Shown here piece by piece: positions 36,355-48,125 of a stretch of 64,000 nt of DNA. The stretch is taken from assembly GCA_022821145.1 (NCBI GenBank), contig JAJEEE010000056.1, forward strand, positions 1 through 64,000, given 5' to 3'. The notes beneath the pieces were generated by a model. That model searched no databases, had not been told where the DNA came from, and saw only the letters and a program-made list of their open reading frames with translations. The position numbers and the translations under genes are program-made. Each line of letters opens with the position of its first letter. Within the stretch, counting starts at the first letter, position 1. The stretch is from Acidobacteriota bacterium (lineage in GTDB: Bacteria > Acidobacteriota > Terriglobia > 20CM-2-55-15).

Positions 36355-37371
36355 ATGCATTCGATGATCGTTACCGGCGCGCTCGCCGCCGCCGCCGTTC
36401 TGGCCGCCGCGCCTACGCCCGCGTCCGCCGCCGCGTTCGACCTGGGCCCCATCCCGTTGAACTGCGACCGGGCGTGCCTGGAGGACGTGGTGGACCAATA
36501 CCTGGCCGCCGTCGTCGCGCACGACCCGTCGCTGCTGCCGCTGTCGGCCGACGTCATGTACACGGAGAACAACCAGGTGATGGACGTCGGCGACGGGTTC
36601 TGGAAGACGGCCGAGGACCGGGGCCGCTACACGCACGTCTTCGCCGATCCCGAGTTCGGGCAGGTGGCCTACATGGGCACGATGATCGAGGCCGGCAACC
36701 CCATCCTGATGAGCCTCCGGCTCCGGATCCAGCTCGGCCGGATCACCGAGATCGAGAGCGTCTACTTCAAGCCCGGGGGCGGGGGGCCCAACAACATCGC
36801 CGCGATGGACGCGCCCCACGTGCCCGAGGACTTCTGGTTCCGCTCGATCCCGCCCGAGGACCAGATGTCGCGCCAGGAGCTGATCGCCATCGCCGACGGC
36901 TACTTCACCGGCCTGCAGCGCAACGACGGCCGGGGCATCCACGGCACGGGCACCTATCCGTTCACCGACGACTGCCACCGGATCGAGAACGGGTCGCCCA
37001 CCACCAACGTGCCCCTCAGGCCGGACCAGGACCCCGACGCGCTGAACGTCTTCTCGATGGGCTGCCTGGAAGCGTTCGAGCTGGGCATGTACTACATCGT
37101 GCAGAGCAACCACCAGCGCCGGTATCCGGTGGTGGACCGCGAGCGGGGCGTCGTCTACGCGCACGCGGTCTTTGACCAGGGAACGGTCAACTCGGGCACG
37201 CTCTCCGACGGGCGCCCGCATTCCTACGCGCCGGGGTTCAGCCGGCCGTCGAGCATCCTGGTGACCGAGGCCTTCCTGATCGAGGACGGCAAGATCCGGA
37301 GCGTGGAGATGGTGGGTCCGGGGGCCGTCTACCACATGAACTCGCCGTGGGGCGGCCTCAGCGGCGATTAG
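36355..37371 (+). CDS. Secreted NTF2-like (DUF8021-type) protein, unknown role
   Basis: 338 residues; ATG 36355 has GAGGAG upstream. Signal peptide IVTGALAAAAVLAAAPTPASA. The mature protein has CDRACLEDVVDQYLAAVVAHDPSLLPLSADVMYTENNQ, a snoaL/NTF2-like beginning, then GRYTHVFADPEFGQVAYMGTM. A second similar region starts near 180 (LIAIADGYFTGLQRNDGRGIHGTGTYPFTDDCHRIENG). I recall fungal and bacterial DUF8021 proteins of this sort; catalytic role unknown. Its last nine codons are duplicated at 39034. Confidence 0.7.
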   Translation: MHSMIVTGALAAAAVLAAAPTPASAAAFDLGPIPLNCDRACLEDVVDQYLAAVVAHDPSLLPLSADVMYTENNQVMDVGDGFWKTAEDRGRYTHVFADPEFGQVAYMGTMIEAGNPILMSLRLRIQLGRITEIESVYFKPGGGGPNNIAAMDAPHVPEDFWFRSIPPEDQMSRQELIAIADGYFTGLQRNDGRGIHGTGTYPFTDDCHRIENGSPTTNVPLRPDQDPDALNVFSMGCLEAFELGMYYIVQSNHQRRYPVVDRERGVVYAHAVFDQGTVNSGTLSDGRPHSYAPGFSRPSSILVTEAFLIEDGKIRSVEMVGPGAVYHMNSPWGGLSGD

Positions 37372-37385: not shown

Positions 37386-37612
37386 AGAGGGGGCCCAGCG
37401 GCCCAGGTGCGCCCCGCCGAACATCCGCGGCTTCGACATGATCGACCGGATGCGGCTGTCGGTTGCGATCTTGCCCCGCTCGATCCGACGTAAGAGTTGC
37501 CCGGCACAAGACATCCTGCCTATTCCCTGCTGACGATCGAAACACCGAAGAGATCAACGGCGGGGTAGCAGAGTAACAACGAGGCGTGAGTACAGCAACG
37601 GTCTCGACGAGG

Positions 37613-38575
37613 CTACTGTCGCTGTATCGGGATGGGTAAACCTGGGAAAGGACTTGGCGGGGCCCAGTTTTTCACATACATGCGGTCCAGGTCAGAGTGG
37701 AGGATTTTGCTTGCGGGACCCTTTTCACAGGCGATGGTGAACAGATGATAAAGGGTCAACACGGCTTCTTGAAGCGGCTGGTTGTCTTCAAGATCTTCGA
37801 TCACGACGTTCTGTGAGCGGGCTTCGTTCCGGTCGATACGGCGTCCGTGGCTCTTATGCGTCGCCGCGTCGTTGAAATGCCGGGCTACGGTTCCGGCCAA
37901 AGCGTTGGCGTCGGTGCGGCCGGCGAACATGTAGCGTTCCAACCATTCAGCCACCATGCGCTCGCCATAGTCGAGAGCGTTTCTAGCCTCTTGCAACAGC
38001 GCGGGCCCGATCGTCTGCAAGACCGGAAACCACGCGCCCGCGGCTGCGGCGTTCTCGAGGATTTCTTTCTTCGCTTGATCGAATTGGTCCACGATGGCGC
38101 GGGCGGATTGTGCTCGCTGTCCCATGAGAAATTGCGGATCGATCGGTCCGAGCTGGCTCTGGCGACCCATGACAATTCGGTTGGCGGCCAAGCTGATCAT
38201 CGTGCCGGCCGACATGGCGTACGTGGCCACGATCACCTCGATGTCGTCGAATTTGGACCGCAGGTAGGCGACGATGGTTTCTGCCGCGTTGGTGACGCCC
38301 CCGGGAGAGTGGAGCACGAGCGTCAACCCTTTGGCCCAAGTCATGCCGAACATGACCGACATGAAAGCATTCAGGTCCTCATGCGTAATCTGTAATCGAT
38401 TTGCAGGAGCTTGGGGTTTTTGGAGGAACGCCGAGGCGTATAGGATTACGTGACGATCGCCACGCAACCGTGCGATTTCAGCCAAGTATCTTGCGGATTC
38501 TGTTCGTAGCCAGCGGCTGCGCTCTCGTTCGGGTAGCGCCTCGATCCGATCGACCAAGTCGTTCCACGAGGGCAT
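37613..38575 (-). CDS. Serine dehydrogenase proteinase (SDH/ClpP-crotonase fold)
   Basis: 320 residues. ClpP-class motifs: LVLHSPGGVTNAAETIVAYL (oxyanion region) and VATYAMSAGTMISLAANRIVMGRQSQLGPIDPQ, with the nucleophile Ser in M-S-A-G-T-M. No signal peptide, so cytosolic or membrane-associated. The family is named for a protease acting on serine dehydrogenase. In genomes like this it usually stands apart from that enzyme, so the true target is open. Composition is lower in GC than neighbours. It is 18 bases downstream of a small helical gene. Confidence 0.85.
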   Translation of the reverse strand: MPSWNDLVDRIEALPERERSRWLRTESARYLAEIARLRGDRHVILYASAFLQKPQAPANRLQITHEDLNAFMSVMFGMTWAKGLTLVLHSPGGVTNAAETIVAYLRSKFDDIEVIVATYAMSAGTMISLAANRIVMGRQSQLGPIDPQFLMGQRAQSARAIVDQFDQAKKEILENAAAAGAWFPVLQTIGPALLQEARNALDYGERMVAEWLERYMFAGRTDANALAGTVARHFNDAATHKSHGRRIDRNEARSQNVVIEDLEDNQPLQEAVLTLYHLFTIACEKGPASKILHSDLDRMYVKNWAPPSPFPGLPIPIQRQ

Positions 38576-38593
38576 GTTTCGAGTGCAGAGGAA

Positions 38594-38809
38594 TTATTTT
38601 TCGGGCCAGATGGTCAGGGTCAGCGGAACGTCGGATGGCGGCGGCGCAAGCGAATCCGCCCAGACGCTCGCCAGTGAGGCCGTTTGGCTGATTTTGAGGT
38701 ATTCGTCGTACTGCTTCTCCGCTTGCGCCAACGCGTCGAATACACGCGCATCGTCTGCGGCCACCTTTGCCTTGTCGTCAACGTAAGGCTTCGCGGTTTC
38801 GCCGGCCAT
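38594..38809 (-). CDS. Small helical partner of the protease gene
   Basis: 71 residues from ATG 38809, with AAGGGAG 6 bases upstream (a GTG one codon earlier is less well placed). Charged helix (KAKVAADDARVFDALAQAEKQYDEYLKISQTA) and a Pro-rich, hydrophobic end (PPPSDVPLTLTIWPEK). It starts the two-gene unit with the protease. Unknown; possibly an adaptor or inhibitor. Confidence 0.65.
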   Translation of the reverse strand: MAGETAKPYVDDKAKVAADDARVFDALAQAEKQYDEYLKISQTASLASVWADSLAPPPSDVPLTLTIWPEK

Positions 38810-39033
38810 CACGTACTCCCTTGTGGCGTTTCGTAGAATCGCCGCATCGTTGGGGCGGAGCGGGATCCAATCGCTCAGGATCGCACGATGTGGCGCTACG
38901 TTGTGGATCGTAACACTCTGCCGTGGGATTGTACATGCGAGGCACGGCGTCGCGACGCACTCGATGCGTTCCCGTAGGCGAGGCGCGATGACGCCCCAGA
39001 AGCTCGCTCTCGGCCAAGAAAGACCGAGGGCCC

Positions 39034-41380: not shown

Positions 41381-41503
41381 AAGGTCGATCGGATGCTGGC
41401 CCGCCTCGACGCGATGGCCGAGCCGGAGAACGTGGACCGGCCGCGGTGTCTCGTGCACGGTCGTGGAGAGTGACCGCGCAGGTGTCTGGTCGAGTACCAT
41501 TAG
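41381..41503 (+). pseudogene. higB toxin remnant
   Basis: One frame reads [21 protein letters not shown] then VHGRGE-stop, then after four codons LVEYH-stop. This matches the middle (R-L-x-x-L-x-A-x-x-x-P-E-D) and the last residues (...V-x-Y-H) of HigB/RelE-type toxins, with the core between them missing and an internal TGA at 41471. The intact higA begins 20 bases later. No start codon for a full toxin is seen. Confidence 0.65.
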
Positions 41504-41522
41504 GGAGAAAGGGGGATCTGGC

Positions 41523-41804
41523 ATGCCGATGAAGAACCCGCCGCATCCCGGCTCGTCCGTCCGCCGTGATTGTCTGGAACCTCTGGGTTTGGGCGTGACC
41601 GAAGCGTCCGAACGCCTCGGTGTCAGCCGAAAGCAGTTGTCCGACGTGGTCAATGGTCGTTCCGGCATATCGCCGGAAATGGCCATCCGCCTCGACAAGG
41701 CATTCGGCGGCGGCGCCGATACCTGGTACAGCTTGCAGGCCGCCTATGACCGTAGACACTCGGCGACATCAAGATGCAACGCATCACGGGCGCGCAGTGA
41801 TTAG
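41523..41804 (+). CDS. higA: HigA-type antitoxin (XRE family), orphan
   Basis: 93 residues. [41 protein letters not shown] is the HigA helix-turn-helix region; [27 protein letters not shown] completes it. The opening [10 protein letters not shown] is typical of the family. GGGAGAAAGGGGG lies upstream. Its toxin partner is ruined (41381-41503), so this would act only as a DNA-binding regulator or anti-addiction factor. Confidence 0.85.
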
Positions 41805-41861
41805 ATGTCGACCGTCGCGAGTTTCGGGCAAACTCTGAACTCGTACGCTAGTGTCACCACG

Positions 41862-42860
41862 CTACTTGTCCAAGTTGGCCGCCACAGCCATCGCCATTCT
41901 GCGGAGCAGTTCCTTAAGTTCACGCCCTTTAAGGATCGTTACGCCATCGATCTCCGGCGGCAGCCTGTCCCCAACATGTTCGCCCGTCAATACGACGATC
42001 TTCTCGATGATGCGGAGCCCGTCGCGCAAGGGCTTCCACCCTTCGTCCGCTTTCTTGACCTGTTCGACGGCGTCCGTAACGTGTTCTGCGGTGCCCTGCC
42101 AATCTTTTACTTGTAGGGCGATTCCGTAGGAAACGGTCGGTAGTGGCCCCGACATCGTGATCAATATATCCGTGCCGTGAATCGCTTCGCTCGGTCCGCT
42201 TGTTTTTTCGACATGATGGTTCGGAAACAGTGCACTTAACCCGGCTACTAGGGCGTATTCCCATTCGGCGGCGGCGAACTGCTTCGACAACGCTCGGTGA
42301 ACTTTGGTTCCTAATTGATCGTTGAGCGATGCGACGACAGAGATCAAGTGTTTCGTGAAACGTTCGTCCCAGTCCTGATCCGATATCAGCTCGTTGGCGG
42401 GGCGTCTGACCAGGTCTTCGACAGAGTCAGCGCAATCGCTCATGTCCCAAAAACGAGATCGACACTTGAGGGTGGTTCTCACGTCGGCGGCAACGTTCTG
42501 ATTCTGACGGTGAAAGTGCCCACTTTTCTCTGCTGGAAACTGATGACCGTAGTCGCCAAAGTCCTTGTGGATGTCGAACCGGTAACCCTTGTCCCAATCC
42601 TCAGTGGCGCGGGCGATCGTGACGCTTTCCCAGTCGGGAATCCGGGGAATCAAGATAATGTCGCCCTTTTTCACGGATTCGAACATCCGCAGATTCGCGC
42701 GCTGCTCTCTCGGACGTGTAGCCACGTCCAATGTTCGAAGATTCTGGCTCTTATCGTATCCCCACCCCTGCCTGAGTACACCGTGCTCGCGCAATTCGCG
42801 AACATAGAAATCAGGATAACCTTCACTGTCAACGTCGATTCGAAAACCCCAATAGGACAT
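41862..42860 (-). CDS. Putative modification-sensing nuclease: PUA/EVE-like head, PD-(D/E)xK tail
   Basis: 332 residues from ATG 42860 (GGAGGG 8 bases upstream). N-terminal part (1-110): MSYWGFRIDVDSEGYPDFYV, LRQGWGYDKSQNLR, SVKKGDIILIPRIPDW, ATEDWDKGYRFDI and DYGHQFPA. The pattern suggests a PUA/EVE-like reader of modified bases. C-terminal part (160-320): FAAAEWEYALVAGL (Glu201), IHGTDILITM (Asp231) and YGIALQVKDW (Gln250-x-Lys252), the E...D...QxK core of Mrr-type PD-(D/E)xK nucleases. The gene is clearly more AT-rich than the region. Downstream of the WYL regulator by 168 bases on the same strand. Function inferred; no exact family recalled. Confidence 0.6.
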   Translation of the reverse strand: MSYWGFRIDVDSEGYPDFYVRELREHGVLRQGWGYDKSQNLRTLDVATRPREQRANLRMFESVKKGDIILIPRIPDWESVTIARATEDWDKGYRFDIHKDFGDYGHQFPAEKSGHFHRQNQNVAADVRTTLKCRSRFWDMSDCADSVEDLVRRPANELISDQDWDERFTKHLISVVASLNDQLGTKVHRALSKQFAAAEWEYALVAGLSALFPNHHVEKTSGPSEAIHGTDILITMSGPLPTVSYGIALQVKDWQGTAEHVTDAVEQVKKADEGWKPLRDGLRIIEKIVVLTGEHVGDRLPPEIDGVTILKGRELKELLRRMAMAVAANLDK

Positions 42861-43028
42861 CTTGACCACCCTCCGTTGGTAACAACGTGACGACGCCTTC
42901 TGCTCCGGTGCGGCGGCACACGTCGAATCGGGACAGCTTGCACGACTGTGATCTTCCGAAGCAACTACCTAAAGTGACGGCGAGAAGGGGTCGACATCGT
43001 CGCGCGGGAAGGCTCACACAGTCTCGCG

Positions 43029-44072
43029 TTATGAAGCGCCTGTTTCGCGTCCCTCGGCGCGCCCACCCGACTCATACATTCCCGCCAGCCGCCAAGCCTC
43101 AGCGGCGAATTCCTCCCGCAACGACGCCGGTTCGAGCACCTCCACCAGGCTCCCGAACCGCCGCAGCCACCAGCGCAACTCGGACGTATCGTCCACGGTC
43201 GCTTCGACCAGCACCTTCCCGTCGTCGGTCTCCGTCGCGCGGTGATCCTCGGACAGTCGGCTCTCGGTGAGGTGCGCGCCGGCCGCCGAATCGAACAGCG
43301 CGCGCAACCGCAGCTTGTCGGCGCTGTCGGGATAGGCGAACGCGCCGTCGGAGGCGAGATGCGCCTCCAGGCGGAAATCCCGCAGACGTCTCGCCGGCTC
43401 TTCGATCAAGCGAGGTTCGCTCATCCGGTGCAGCACATAGTGGCGGACGTCTTCGTAGTCCCAGGCGGTCGCGAGCAGATAGACGATGCCGGTTCGAACG
43501 ACGATGGCCTGCGGACTCAGGAGCATGGGCCTGGGTTTCTCGTCGTACTTGCCGCGGTACAGGACCTCGATCTTCCGATCGGTCCTCAGCGCTTCGTAGA
43601 CCGTTTCCTGCACGTCCGCGGGAATGGGCGGCGGTATCAGCGCCGGGCCCGGCGTGATGATCGCCGCTCGGTCCTTCCAGGATCCCAACTCGGTCCCCCG
43701 GAGTATCCGGTCGGCGTGCTTGAAATACGGGTCGAGCACGCGCAGTGTCGCCGGCGGCATGATCGACTTCAGGTATTCGGCCGCCAGGCGCAGCACGAAG
43801 GCCGTCGGCGCCGTCATCGCTGGAATCTGTGTCAGGGCGTCCGGGTCCAGCCACGACCAATAGTTGGTGCGGCCGCGCGTGTCCGAGGCGATCGGGAAGA
43901 TCCGGGACAGGCTTTCCAGGCTTCGCTGTACGGAGCGGACGCTGACGGCGAAGTTCGGATCCTTGTCCCGCAGCGCCTCCATGATCTGCCGCGTGCTCTT
44001 GCGATGCGGCGGCGCCGGGATGGCCGTCAGCATCGCGACGTGGCGAAGCGTCGTCTCCGTTGCGGTTCGCAT
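43029..44072 (-). CDS. WYL-domain transcriptional regulator
   Basis: 347 residues. An N-terminal winged helix (about 1-70: ...STRQIMEALRDKD...VSVRSVQRSLESLSRIFPI) is followed by a WYL domain (about 150-245: KIEVLYRGKYDEKPRPMLLSPQAIVVRTGIVYLLA and HYVLHRMSEPRL). A WCX-like C-terminus has LRWWLRRFGSLVEVLEPASLREEF. Such regulators often control phage-defence operons and respond to nucleic acid ligands. It starts 18 bases after the AAA+ gene, so the two are one unit. Confidence 0.85.
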   Translation of the reverse strand: MRTATETTLRHVAMLTAIPAPPHRKSTRQIMEALRDKDPNFAVSVRSVQRSLESLSRIFPIASDTRGRTNYWSWLDPDALTQIPAMTAPTAFVLRLAAEYLKSIMPPATLRVLDPYFKHADRILRGTELGSWKDRAAIITPGPALIPPPIPADVQETVYEALRTDRKIEVLYRGKYDEKPRPMLLSPQAIVVRTGIVYLLATAWDYEDVRHYVLHRMSEPRLIEEPARRLRDFRLEAHLASDGAFAYPDSADKLRLRALFDSAAGAHLTESRLSEDHRATETDDGKVLVEATVDDTSELRWWLRRFGSLVEVLEPASLREEFAAEAWRLAGMYESGGRAEGRETGAS

Positions 44073-44090
44073 GCGTCATTCTATTCCGGC

Positions 44091-46211
44091 TCATGGACGG
44101 GCGCGGAGTTCGCGCGTGAATCCGATCGCCGCGGCGCCTCCGCGCTTGGCGTAGCACTCGACGCGCAGCAGGTCGACGAGCTCGTTGGCGTCGTCCAACT
44201 GTCCCATCAGCTGCGCCGTGCGCCGCACCACGTCGAAGTCCCCCGGTGTCAGCGCGTCCAGAGCCGCCAGGTTCGTTGGCGGCTCGAGCCGGAACCACGT
44301 CCGGAAAGCCGCGGCCGCCGCCTTGGCGTCCAGGTACCCCAGCGTCACCTTGAACAAGAACCGCCGCAGCGTGGCGCTGTCGAGGCTCTCCCGGTAGTTC
44401 GTCGTGCAGGCGAACGGGAGCGGATGGCATTCCATCCACGTCAGCATTTCGTTGACCATGCTGACCTCCCAGCTTCGGTGTGCGCCCCGGCGGTCGGCCA
44501 GCAGCGAGTCGGCCTCGTCGAACACCAGGAACGCGCCGGTGTCGCGCGCCTCGGCGAAGGCGCGGGCGATCTTGTGCTCGGTCTCGCCGACGAACATGCC
44601 CAGGAGATCCGAGGCGCGCCGGTGCAAGACATCGAGGCCCAGCCGGTCGGCGAGGTATCGCACGAACGCGCTCTTGCCGGTGCCCGGCGGGCCGTCCAGA
44701 CAGAGTGAGAATCGCCGTTCATCGCTTCGCTGCAAGCGGTCGGCCAAGCTGACAAGATCCACGCCGGCCGATGTCAGCGTCGGGTCGAACTTCACGGAAT
44801 TCTTGATTCCCGGGCGATCGCAGCGGAGTAATCTGGACAGGTTTTGCACGCTCCGGCGCACCAACTCGTACCCGCCGGCGCCCAGGTCGCCGGCCAGAAC
44901 CGCGCCCTCGGCCACTCCGGGCGTGGCGGTGAACTCGTCCGCCAGCGCTTGCGCCTCCGCATCGGTGGCGTCGATGCCGTGCCGCTCCAGTTGCCGGGAC
45001 CAGATTCCGGCCCTGATGCGGGCGGGCGGTAGCCGCATTTCCACGGCGTACGTCATCCGCCGAAGCAGCGCGGCGTCGATGTTCTCGGCTGAGTTGGTGA
45101 CCCACAGGGTCGGCACGGGCGCTTGCTCGAGCACGCGGTGCAAGAACACCTTGGATGCGGCATGCCCAATCCCGGAACCAAGCATTCCTCTGTGTATCGA
45201 ATCAACCCCCGCGTGCGACAGTAAGTCCTCCATTTCGTCGAACAGAAGCAAGGCTTGCCGACCGCCGCGCAACAGCTCGTGCGCGAGGCAAAGTTCCGCA
45301 AGGCGGTCGCTGTTTCGCGGCTCCTTCCGCTCCGTGCAACCCTCTCCGACGCCGAACAGGCGGACGCCGAGGCGCTCGGCGATAGCCGTGCAAAACGTGG
45401 TCTTGCCCGTTCCCGGCGGACCGTAGATCAGGACGTTGACACCCGTCGCTTCGCGGGCCAAGGCGCCCCGAAGGACGGACTCTACATCCTCGCGATGACT
45501 CCCGAGATGATCGAAGTCGGACCAGGCGAGTTCACCCGGTGGAGGCTTGTCCAAGAGCACGTCGCGCACATCCGCGTGGTCTGCCTCACTCAGCCGGAGC
45601 AACCGCCGCAGGCTTCCGGACAAGCCGATTTCCCAATCGTAATCGACCTGCAGCAGTCCTTTTCGAATCAATGGCGCGTCCAGAGCAAAGCGTTCACGCC
45701 ACACGGCCAGCGGCATCTCCAGCGCGTGGGGCAGCACGTTGTGGTTCACTCTGAGCGCTCCGCTTGCGTAGAGTGCACTCTGCCGCGTCGAGAAAGATTC
45801 AAGCAGGGCGTGGAACTCCCACGACTCAGTGATGAACAGACATGCCTCAAGGATCGCAACGTCCTGCCGTCCGAGGCCGACGATTTCTCCGAGCTGGCGG
45901 ACCCGTCGCGCCCACAGACCGGGTGGGACACCCGACGTCGCGTCTTTCGCCTTCTCGAGAGTTTCGACGAATTGGTGCCACACGCTTGCTGACACGTGAT
46001 TCGCCTTGTCCGATCGTCCAGCCTGTCCTGTCCGGGAGCCGTCACGCAGTGAACTCACGGCGTCGTCTGCATGTCTCTGCACGGCGGTCGGGCCGTTCCC
46101 TTCAGTCAGGTATTCGATGAGGTTTCCCGCTTCCGGAGACGGAAACCGGACTCGTCGCACGATGTTGGCGGTGTAACTGAGGAAGAGATGATCCTCGTAG
46201 TCGACCGGCAT
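44091..46211 (-). CDS. Tandem AAA+ ATPase (CDC48-like, two ATPase modules)
   Basis: 706 residues. AAA module 1: Walker A GPPGTGKT (264-271), Walker B LLLFDEMED (321-329), sensor-like WVTNSAENID and Arg finger region ALLRRMTYAVEMRLP. AAA module 2: Walker A GPPGTGKS (507-514), Walker B FLVFDEADS (561-569), then CTTNYRESLDSATLRRFLFKVTL. The N-terminal 230 residues are a helical, unknown domain. AAGGAGG lies 11 bases before the ATG at 46211. It is coupled to the WYL gene. The fold suggests a protein or nucleic-acid remodelling ring; its exact target is unknown. The pairing of tandem AAA+ and WYL is seen in accessory loci. Confidence 0.85.
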   Translation of the reverse strand: MPVDYEDHLFLSYTANIVRRVRFPSPEAGNLIEYLTEGNGPTAVQRHADDAVSSLRDGSRTGQAGRSDKANHVSASVWHQFVETLEKAKDATSGVPPGLWARRVRQLGEIVGLGRQDVAILEACLFITESWEFHALLESFSTRQSALYASGALRVNHNVLPHALEMPLAVWRERFALDAPLIRKGLLQVDYDWEIGLSGSLRRLLRLSEADHADVRDVLLDKPPPGELAWSDFDHLGSHREDVESVLRGALAREATGVNVLIYGPPGTGKTTFCTAIAERLGVRLFGVGEGCTERKEPRNSDRLAELCLAHELLRGGRQALLLFDEMEDLLSHAGVDSIHRGMLGSGIGHAASKVFLHRVLEQAPVPTLWVTNSAENIDAALLRRMTYAVEMRLPPARIRAGIWSRQLERHGIDATDAEAQALADEFTATPGVAEGAVLAGDLGAGGYELVRRSVQNLSRLLRCDRPGIKNSVKFDPTLTSAGVDLVSLADRLQRSDERRFSLCLDGPPGTGKSAFVRYLADRLGLDVLHRRASDLLGMFVGETEHKIARAFAEARDTGAFLVFDEADSLLADRRGAHRSWEVSMVNEMLTWMECHPLPFACTTNYRESLDSATLRRFLFKVTLGYLDAKAAAAAFRTWFRLEPPTNLAALDALTPGDFDVVRRTAQLMGQLDDANELVDLLRVECYAKRGGAAAIGFTRELRARP

Positions 46212-46402
46212 GGCATTCGTATCCTCCTTGGTGAGCTGATTCGAAGGTACGAACGGTTTGCGTCAAATAACGTCGCGATTGCGTAGTTTTTGGCGAACGC
46301 CGCAAGAAACACCGGCCCGGCGTGGATTACGCCTCAACTGGCAGGATGGGAACGGGCCGCCCCGGCCAAGCCGAGTGCGTGGGCCAAGTCCCCGGCCCCG
46401 GC

Positions 46403-47716
46403 CTACGCCGGCAGGCGGATCGTGAAGGTCGACCCCGAGCCGATGGTGCTGTCGACCGTGAGCGTGCCGCCCTGGCTCTCGACCGCGTGGCGGGCGATGG
46501 CCAGCCCCAGCCCCGTGCCGCCCCCTTGTCGCGTGCGCGCCCGGTCCAGCCGGAAGAAGCGTTCGAATATCCGCGACCGTCCCTCGTGGGGGATGCCGTA
46601 GCCGCTGTCGGCGACGGCGATGGCCACCATCGATTCGCTCGCCGACGCCTGGACGCGAACGTCGCCGTCGGGCCGGTTGTAGCGCACGGCGTTGTCGATC
46701 AGGTTGGCCAGCGCCGTACCGAGCCGCTCCCGGTCGGCGCGGATCCGGATGGACGGGCAGTCGACCTCGATCTCGATGGCGGCGGCTTCCGGAACGCTCC
46801 GGTAGCGCGAAACCTGCTCGTGGATGACCGTCGACAGGTCGAACGTGTCGAGCGCCGACGGCGGCTCGGCCTCGAGGCGGGCCAGATCGAGCATGTCGTT
46901 GACGAGCGATTCCAGGTCGCGCGCGTTGCGTTCGATGATCCGCGCGAACTCCTTGTGGGAGTCCCCGGGCGTTTCGGCGGCGATGGTCTCGGCGTATCCT
47001 CGGATCGACGTCAGCGGCGTCTTGAACTCGTGCGACACGTTCGCGACGAAATCGCTGCGGATCCGTTCGGCTTGGCGGATGTCGGTCAGGTCGTGCAGGA
47101 CGGCGACGACGGTCTCCACCCCGTTCTCCGCGTCGCCGGCGATGGGCGCCAGCGAGGCCTGGACCACGCGGCCCGCCCCGGTGCGGAACTCCACGGTCTC
47201 CACCGGGCGTCCCTCGATGGCGTCGCGGAGGGCCCGGTCCAGCGCCTCGTCCCGGAAGACCTCCAGGCATGTCTTGCCCTCCACGCCGCGCGGGCTGTCC
47301 AGCAGGCGCTCGGCCGCCGGGTTGCCCAGCACGATGCGCGCGTCGGCGTCGAACACGAGGACGCCCTCGGCCATGGCTTCCAGGATCGACTCCAGGTGGT
47401 TGCGCGCCGCGGCCGTCTCGCCGAGCTCGGCGGCCACGTCCTCGGACCATTCGCCCAGCGCCTTGGTCAGCGCCTCGATTTCGGGCGCGCCGCGAATCCG
47501 CGACGGAAGCGTGTCGCCGGGCCGCGCGCCTCGCGCGCGCCGCGTCAACTCCTCCAGCGGTTCGCGGACGTGGCCGCGGACGCGAAGCGCGGCGAACCCG
47601 GCCCCGGCCAGGATCAGGAGGGCGAAGATGGCCGTCGCGGACCGGAACCCGAATATCAGGAAGGCCGGGACCACCCCGACGGCCATCAATGCCGCCACCC
47701 GCCAGTGGATCGGCAT
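46403..47716 (-). CDS. phoR: Phosphate sensor histidine kinase
   Basis: 437 residues from ATG 47716 (GAGTGAGG upstream). Two N-terminal TM segments (about 9-23, 28-45), a linker, a PAS domain (about 107-215: ILEAMAEGVLVFDADARIVLGNPAAERLL), then the H-box SDFVANVSHEFKTPLTSIRGY (His229) and ATPase motifs NLIDNAVRYN, DSGYGIP, GGTGLGLAIARH. Classical PhoR layout. It lies downstream of phoB on the same strand but is split from it by a small XRE gene and a duplicated junction. Senses Pi status through the Pst-PhoU complex. Confidence 0.9.
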   Translation of the reverse strand: MPIHWRVAALMAVGVVPAFLIFGFRSATAIFALLILAGAGFAALRVRGHVREPLEELTRRARGARPGDTLPSRIRGAPEIEALTKALGEWSEDVAAELGETAAARNHLESILEAMAEGVLVFDADARIVLGNPAAERLLDSPRGVEGKTCLEVFRDEALDRALRDAIEGRPVETVEFRTGAGRVVQASLAPIAGDAENGVETVVAVLHDLTDIRQAERIRSDFVANVSHEFKTPLTSIRGYAETIAAETPGDSHKEFARIIERNARDLESLVNDMLDLARLEAEPPSALDTFDLSTVIHEQVSRYRSVPEAAAIEIEVDCPSIRIRADRERLGTALANLIDNAVRYNRPDGDVRVQASASESMVAIAVADSGYGIPHEGRSRIFERFFRLDRARTRQGGGTGLGLAIARHAVESQGGTLTVDSTIGSGSTFTIRLPA

Positions 47717-47740: not shown

Positions 47741-47788
47741 AGGCGTCCGACCCCGGCGATCCACCGGGATGGCCGCGTCCGATGTCCC

Positions 47789-48070
47789 CTATCGAGACTG
47801 CAACGCTCGCTTGACGGCTTCCGGCTCCCGTGCGATGACGCGCAGGAGCGTCGCCGCCGGCCCGCTCACTTGACGCGTCCCCTGCTCCCATTTCCGGTAG
47901 CCGGAAAGGCTCATTCCCATCAGGGGCGCCATCTGCGCCTGCGTGAGCCTGACTTGCGTGCGGACCTCACGGGGAGTGACGGGAGCGTGAACCATGGCCG
48001 GGCCCGCACCCTTCGCATGGGCCAGGGCTTCATTGAGGGACCGGATCAAGTCGTCGGCGAACGTACTCAT
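47789..48070 (-). CDS. XRE-family helix-turn-helix protein (NadS/HigA-like), inserted in the pho operon
   Basis: 93 residues from ATG 48070. The HTH is TPREVRTQVRLTQAQMAPLMGMSLSGYRKWEQGTRQVSG. The N-terminal DLIRSLNEALAHAKG and C-terminal PAATLLRVIAREPEAVKRAL are typical of NadS-type antitoxins. A toxin gene that would accompany it was not found. It lies between phoB and phoR and is bounded by the 58-bp duplication, so it came in as a small insertion. It could now be transcribed with the pho genes. Confidence 0.8.
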   Translation of the reverse strand: MSTFADDLIRSLNEALAHAKGAGPAMVHAPVTPREVRTQVRLTQAQMAPLMGMSLSGYRKWEQGTRQVSGPAATLLRVIAREPEAVKRALQSR

Positions 48071-48125
48071 TTCCTGCTCTCGTGCGCGGCCTTCAGCGTG
48101 CGCCCGGCAGCCACGCGCCACACCC

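Follow-up and report, generated by a model that had tools for sequence, protein, structure and literature searches.

Do three genes that lie close together on one strand of an acidobacterial contig form a single defence system, or are they separable parts that travel together? The window analysed here, the whole stretch of 64,000 nucleotides from contig JAJEEE010000056.1, had been predicted from its sequence to encode a tandem AAA+ ATPase, a WYL regulator and a nuclease with a base-reading domain that act together, the nuclease cutting modified DNA and the ATPase moving or remodelling it. The three open reading frames of the original prediction are all present on the minus strand with the coordinates given for them, although those coordinates left out a HigA-like gene that belongs to the same inserted block:

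44091..46211, minus strand: ATPase gene, 706 aa, tandem AAA (Cdc48-like)
43029..44072, minus strand: regulator gene, 347 aa, N-terminal wHTH followed by WYL and WCX
42870..43028: gap between the WYL and nuclease genes, about 160 bp
41862..42860, minus strand: predicted reader-nuclease gene, 332 aa, with its own GGAGGG ribosome site
about 41518..41804, plus strand: HigA-like HTH antitoxin gene inside the block (HTH_3, 4e-8)
41445..46351: block missing from the sister species G001, 4.9 kb

A 4.9-kb block beside phoR

Read along the minus strand, the ATPase gene is preceded by a Shine-Dalgarno sequence (AAGGAGG, about 12 nt upstream) and followed after 18 bases by the WYL gene, a spacing that agrees with the earlier description, and after about 160 bp more by the nuclease gene. 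No consensus terminator or sigma-70 promoter was found in the block, including the WYL-to-nuclease gap, a result that is uninformative at high GC. In the sister species G001, whose phoR is 98% identical to that of the window, the site is empty and the phoR 3' flank is joined directly to the DNA left of 41444. The 4.9-kb block was recently gained here or lost in G001, and because a single indel spans all three genes, the trio came or went as one piece, together with the HigA-like gene, which is probably a passenger and near which no intact higB was found. The third gene is AT-rich, as had been noted: its GC content is 0.547 and its GC3 0.64, compared with 0.71 and 0.91 in the neighbouring phoR and a GC3 of 0.79-0.84 in the ATPase and WYL genes. 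Because the GC3 values are unlike, composition suggests that the nuclease gene had an origin separate from that of the ATPase and WYL genes.

Two further indels relative to G001 were seen in the window. One (37386-39029) carries the gene for a ClpP-like SDH-type protease (37613-38575) and is bordered by a 52-nt, 85% direct repeat (at 37344 and 39030); the other (47756-48125), between phoB and phoR, carries an HTH_3/MqsA-antitoxin-like gene (47789-48076) and is bordered by a 73-nt, 90% direct repeat (at 47683 and 48126).

A predicted base reader fused to an Mrr-type nuclease

Searched alone against Pfam, NCBIfam, PADLOC and PHROGs, the 332-aa protein gave no convincing family match. It has a relative on the Nitrosococcus plasmid pNHAL01 (26% identity, annotated as 'restriction endonuclease'), and a search seeded with these two proteins recovered another 13 loci, spread over Bacteroidota, Fibrobacterota, Proteobacteria and other phyla; no relatives were found in phage records or in viral contigs, and a weak match in G174 was discarded (40% over only 47 residues). 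Alignment of 12 members from several phyla revealed that E201, G222, E225, G229 and D231 in the C-terminal domain are invariant, that Q250 and V251 are nearly so and that K252 occurs in most. These residues include the PD-(D/E)xK core E…GxD…QxK (E201, D231 and Q250-V-K252) of an Mrr-type domain spanning about residues 195-332, and the alignment puts the conservation of this putative core far beyond chance. Mrr_cat is matched by 8 of the 12 aligned members (best 1.9e-8), and the AF2 model built from the member alignment (pLDDT 86.3) has an alpha-beta core in the nuclease domain. Foldseek comparison of this model with the PDB returned MspJI and Thermococcus gammatolerans McrB first, followed by FokI, YTH domains and Cap4, at modest E-values (5e-5 to 0.1), and a 'Mrr-like domain' protein was among the matches in the viral library. 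The predicted Mrr-type PD-(D/E)xK nuclease half is thus firm on the sequence and the model, and the E...D...QxK core that had been proposed from one sequence holds up across the family.

For the N-terminal domain (about residues 1-150), in which the motif LRQGWGYD is invariant among the 12 aligned members, the AF2 model displays an EVE/YTH-like fold of the PUA superfamily, and Foldseek matched it to YTH domains with a TM-score by target of about 0.5-0.57 and a probability of 0.85-0.98. No member of the 12 has a Pfam EVE or YTH match, and hhalign of the reader against two YTH sequences (approximate queries) gave a probability of 0.1; of the profile checks suggested earlier, the one for Mrr_cat gave matches within the family and the one for EVE gave none. 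The EVE/YTH-like reader assignment therefore comes from predicted structure alone. The fold model, Foldseek and Mrr_cat nevertheless favour the domain call originally made, a PUA/EVE-like domain joined to a PD-(D/E)xK nuclease, and the structure prediction that had been proposed as a check yielded a well-modelled protein (pLDDT 86) resembling MspJI, YTH-McrB and YTH domains. We describe the 332-aa protein as a predicted fusion of an EVE/YTH-like reader with an Mrr nuclease.

It is conceivable that what the N-terminal domain reads is RNA, or DNA without modification, which would make the protein an RNA-activated or sequence-specific nuclease, since most of the single-domain folds closest to it are YTH domains of eukaryotes, readers of m6A in RNA, and since neither an EVE nor a YTH signature is detectable in its sequence. 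The two best two-domain fold matches, however, are MspJI and a YTH-McrB fusion, both DNA-modification-dependent restriction proteins, and the C-terminal domain is of the Mrr type; we regard an RNA or plain-DNA reader as very improbable.

Type IV enzymes in which an EVE- or YTH-like domain is fused to a PD(D/E)XK nuclease have been described, and the YTH-like fusions among them are hard to tell from the EVE ones (PMC7641849). The window protein shares with these modification-dependent endonucleases the N-terminal PUA-superfamily reader, the C-terminal Mrr-like nuclease and a single-polypeptide, NTP-independent design, but its reader lies outside the EVE and YTH sequence profiles and has its own LRQGWGYD signature. 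MspJI is a structural analogue of the window nuclease, and the m6A-binding YTH-McrB of T. gammatolerans has the YTH-like N-terminal fold in common with it; in contrast to YTH-McrB and McrBC, the reader here is fused to a nuclease and not to a GTPase, occurs without McrC and has a Cdc48-like ATPase as its neighbour. Some members of the nuclease family match PDC-S02 weakly, whereas the window nuclease matches no PADLOC model and PDC-S02 is absent from the window.

The tandem ATPase and its WYL partner

The Pfam AAA profile matches two stretches of the ATPase (E=8e-34), which is laid out as a helical/winged N-terminal part (about 1-230), AAA-1 (about 240-430) and AAA-2 (about 490-630). The two full Walker A/B sets of the original prediction are both complete, with Walker A GPPGTGK at 264-270 and 507-513 and Walker B DE at 325-326 and 565-566, and in an alignment of 16 homologues these motifs are conserved, as are the sensor asparagines (373 and 605) and the arginine pairs (384-385 and 616-617). 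Residues 111-688 match phrog_10401 ('ATPase', 225 bits); an AF2 model from two sequences reached a pLDDT of only 48, too low for further use. Because AFG2, NVL and Cdc48 are its nearest relatives of solved structure, the ATPase is most likely a Cdc48-like predicted protein remodeller rather than a DNA motor. Neither this type of ATPase nor the co-occurrence data below supports the proposal that it moves DNA for the nuclease.

Two known systems were considered for this ATPase and set aside. McrBC was rejected on the grounds that the AAA domains resemble Cdc48, AFG2 and NVL and not the McrB-type DNA motor, and that no McrC match was found among the genes examined. IetA, likewise an AAA ATPase and the nearest named defence profile, scored 97 bits in PADLOC and 96.7 bits in NCBIfam, far under the curated cut-off of 510; the window ATPase is moreover a tandem and not a single AAA protein, and no subtilase (IetS) partner was present among the adjacent genes scanned.

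The regulator contains WYL (PF13280, 1.4e-12) and WCX (PF25583, 9.3e-16), both over the Pfam cut-offs, and matches the PADLOC WYL profile (6.3e-29), in line with the earlier WYL call; its wHTH was read from sequence alone. The wHTH-WYL-WCX architecture and the defence-type surroundings are common to BrxR and CapW, the WYL regulators of defence islands, from which the window protein differs in its link to a tandem AAA ATPase.

We surveyed 23 other full-length loci of the ATPase, found on plasmids, in genomes and on a single viral contig. Like the nuclease loci, they form a small set with flanks of at most 10 kb, several of them at contig ends; outside annotated records, genes were assigned with home-made profiles after simple ORF picking. 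The flanks retrieved include a WYL gene at 18 of the 23 loci, and ATPase and WYL protein distances are correlated (Mantel r=0.75, p=2e-4, n=19). ATPase and WYL thus constitute a recurrent, co-diverging module of defence islands. A PD-(D/E)xK nuclease of another family than that of the window is found nearby, and often adjacent, at 14 of the 23 loci: DUF2779 (7), PDDEXK_4-like (5, one below the Pfam cut-off) or AddB-like (4), with overlapping counts. The neighbours of the pair are of defence type, comprising DUF2779, PDDEXK_4/PDC-S26, AddB-like nuclease with UvrD, BREX, PDC-M27 and RtcB; PDC-M27 and PDC-S26, although neighbours of the pair elsewhere, are absent from the window. The window ATPase groups with those of loci L136, L033, L135, L086 and L087 (support 100/100), whereas the window WYL protein joins L090 and L049 (98/98) in the other of the deep WYL clades. 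Because the two fall in non-matching clades, the window pair looks recombined on these trees.

Several of the surveyed loci hold arrangements of their own. A cassette of the ATPase, a DUF2779 (Cas4/RecB-like) nuclease and WYL recurs in L042, L047, L090 and L136, in the order ATPase-DUF2779-WYL in the first three, whereas in L136 WYL and one further gene precede DUF2779; in L047 it lies directly 5' of PDC-M27ABC. This cassette is apparently an unnamed defence set. On the rhodobacteral plasmids L040 (8643-13404) and L041 (8519-13446), the ATPase-WYL pair is followed by an ADP-ribosylglycohydrolase and an AddB-like nuclease, with a UvrD helicase also present in L041.

One machine or a module and a nuclease

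Our preferred explanation, which we consider more likely than not, is that the block is a small mobile defence cassette with two separable units, a Cdc48-like ATPase module regulated by WYL and a modification-dependent nuclease that is self-sufficient, the two perhaps co-transcribed. In the first unit, the ATPase would act as a Cdc48-like oligomeric protein remodeller produced under the control of the WYL protein, which may sense infection or DNA damage through nucleic acid or nucleotide signals; elsewhere the pair would be combined with various PD-(D/E)xK nucleases. The second unit would be a stand-alone type IV-like endonuclease, in which a modified base is flipped and read by the EVE/YTH-like domain and the Mrr-type domain cuts near it with no need of an NTP. 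Lying downstream of WYL in the same orientation, the nuclease gene may share its transcription, while the ATPase would not be needed for cutting. The parts of the block are probably defensive; base reading, cleavage, regulation and an anti-phage role are inferred.

Rather less likely, in our estimate, is a single three-gene system. In this scheme the WYL protein would respond to infection by switching on the operon, the nuclease would find modified phage DNA and cleave it, and the ATPase would act on part of the nuclease complex to activate, recycle or unfold it; the nuclease would be one of several interchangeable PD-(D/E)xK effectors that the ATPase-WYL module can use. Its attraction lies in the shared orientation, the 18- and about 160-bp spacings and the shared indel, and in the frequency with which some PD-(D/E)xK nuclease sits near the ATPase elsewhere. 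In addition, an intact nuclease gene near a contig end in L062 is preceded, at 35 bp, by a decayed WYL gene (269-845), 5'-truncated and frameshifted and about 75% DNA-identical to WYL genes accompanying the ATPase; the same genome carries the ATPase-WYL set intact on a different contig. The ATPase also occurs in 4/13 nuclease-bearing genomes, compared with 7/395 in the phylum of the window, a contrast drawn from unmatched taxa. The remnant and the enrichment lend weak support to a link between the nuclease and ATPase-WYL, and with the co-orientation, the shared indel and the lack of a visible terminator they indicate that the nuclease could be an interchangeable partner of the pair. Yet the exact trio, whose failure to recur had been named in advance as evidence against the prediction, was seen only in the window: this nuclease is beside the ATPase in 0/23 other ATPase loci and the tandem ATPase beside the nuclease in 0/14 other nuclease loci, the latter spread over several phyla. 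The window WYL protein, furthermore, comes from a different clade than those of the nearest relatives of its ATPase, so that the set looks assembled and not co-evolved. Joint action of the three genes gains from the common indel and the recurrent ATPase-WYL pairing and loses from the missing recurrence of the trio, which leaves a three-part machine weakly supported; in agreement with the original description, no named system was found for the three-gene set. The genes might instead be chance neighbours, not co-regulated, in a hotspot for insertions next to the pho genes' operon, given that two other indels relative to G001 lie within 11 kb, each with an accessory gene and direct repeats, that the HigA-like gene of the block is on the opposite strand and that GC differs among the genes. 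We consider this improbable, as the three genes are co-oriented and closely spaced and as the recurrent, co-diverging pairing of ATPase and WYL argues that at least those two are not together by chance.

The tandem-AAA/WYL pair might, as a possibility we put forward tentatively, be central to a widespread but unnamed defence system in which PD-(D/E)xK nucleases (DUF2779, PDDEXK_4, AddB-like) are interchangeable, and the pair would be combined in the window with an undescribed EVE/YTH-like-Mrr reader-nuclease family, so that one regulator-remodeller chassis would drive different DNA-cutting specificities. If the chassis does swap nucleases, this would explain a recurrent pattern, as yet unnamed, in defence islands, proteobacterial ones among them, and make it possible to test directly whether DNA restriction can be powered or licensed by Cdc48-like remodellers. 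If the nuclease does read a modified base, it would represent a new reader-nuclease family with a reader domain invisible to profiles; modification-dependent enzymes act against phages whose genomes are modified and serve as tools to map DNA modifications.

The nuclease family itself keeps other company. A single-AAA gene and a WYL gene close to the Alistipes relative (L052) were weighed as a second trio and rejected, the AAA protein being single (125 bits) and the strand opposite. In a Fibrobacter locus (L057, 3287-10972), a nuclease relative begins 10 bp beyond a complete Azaca set, ZacA-ZacB-ZacC, a system (ZacABC) that is absent from the window; the nuclease can thus join other systems too. 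In L055 (6699-11014), about 1.3 kb separates a relative from a divergent 5mC-type DNA methyltransferase and what is probably the restriction partner of that enzyme. Occurrence without the ATPase, after Azaca and near a methyltransferase is as expected of a self-sufficient effector.
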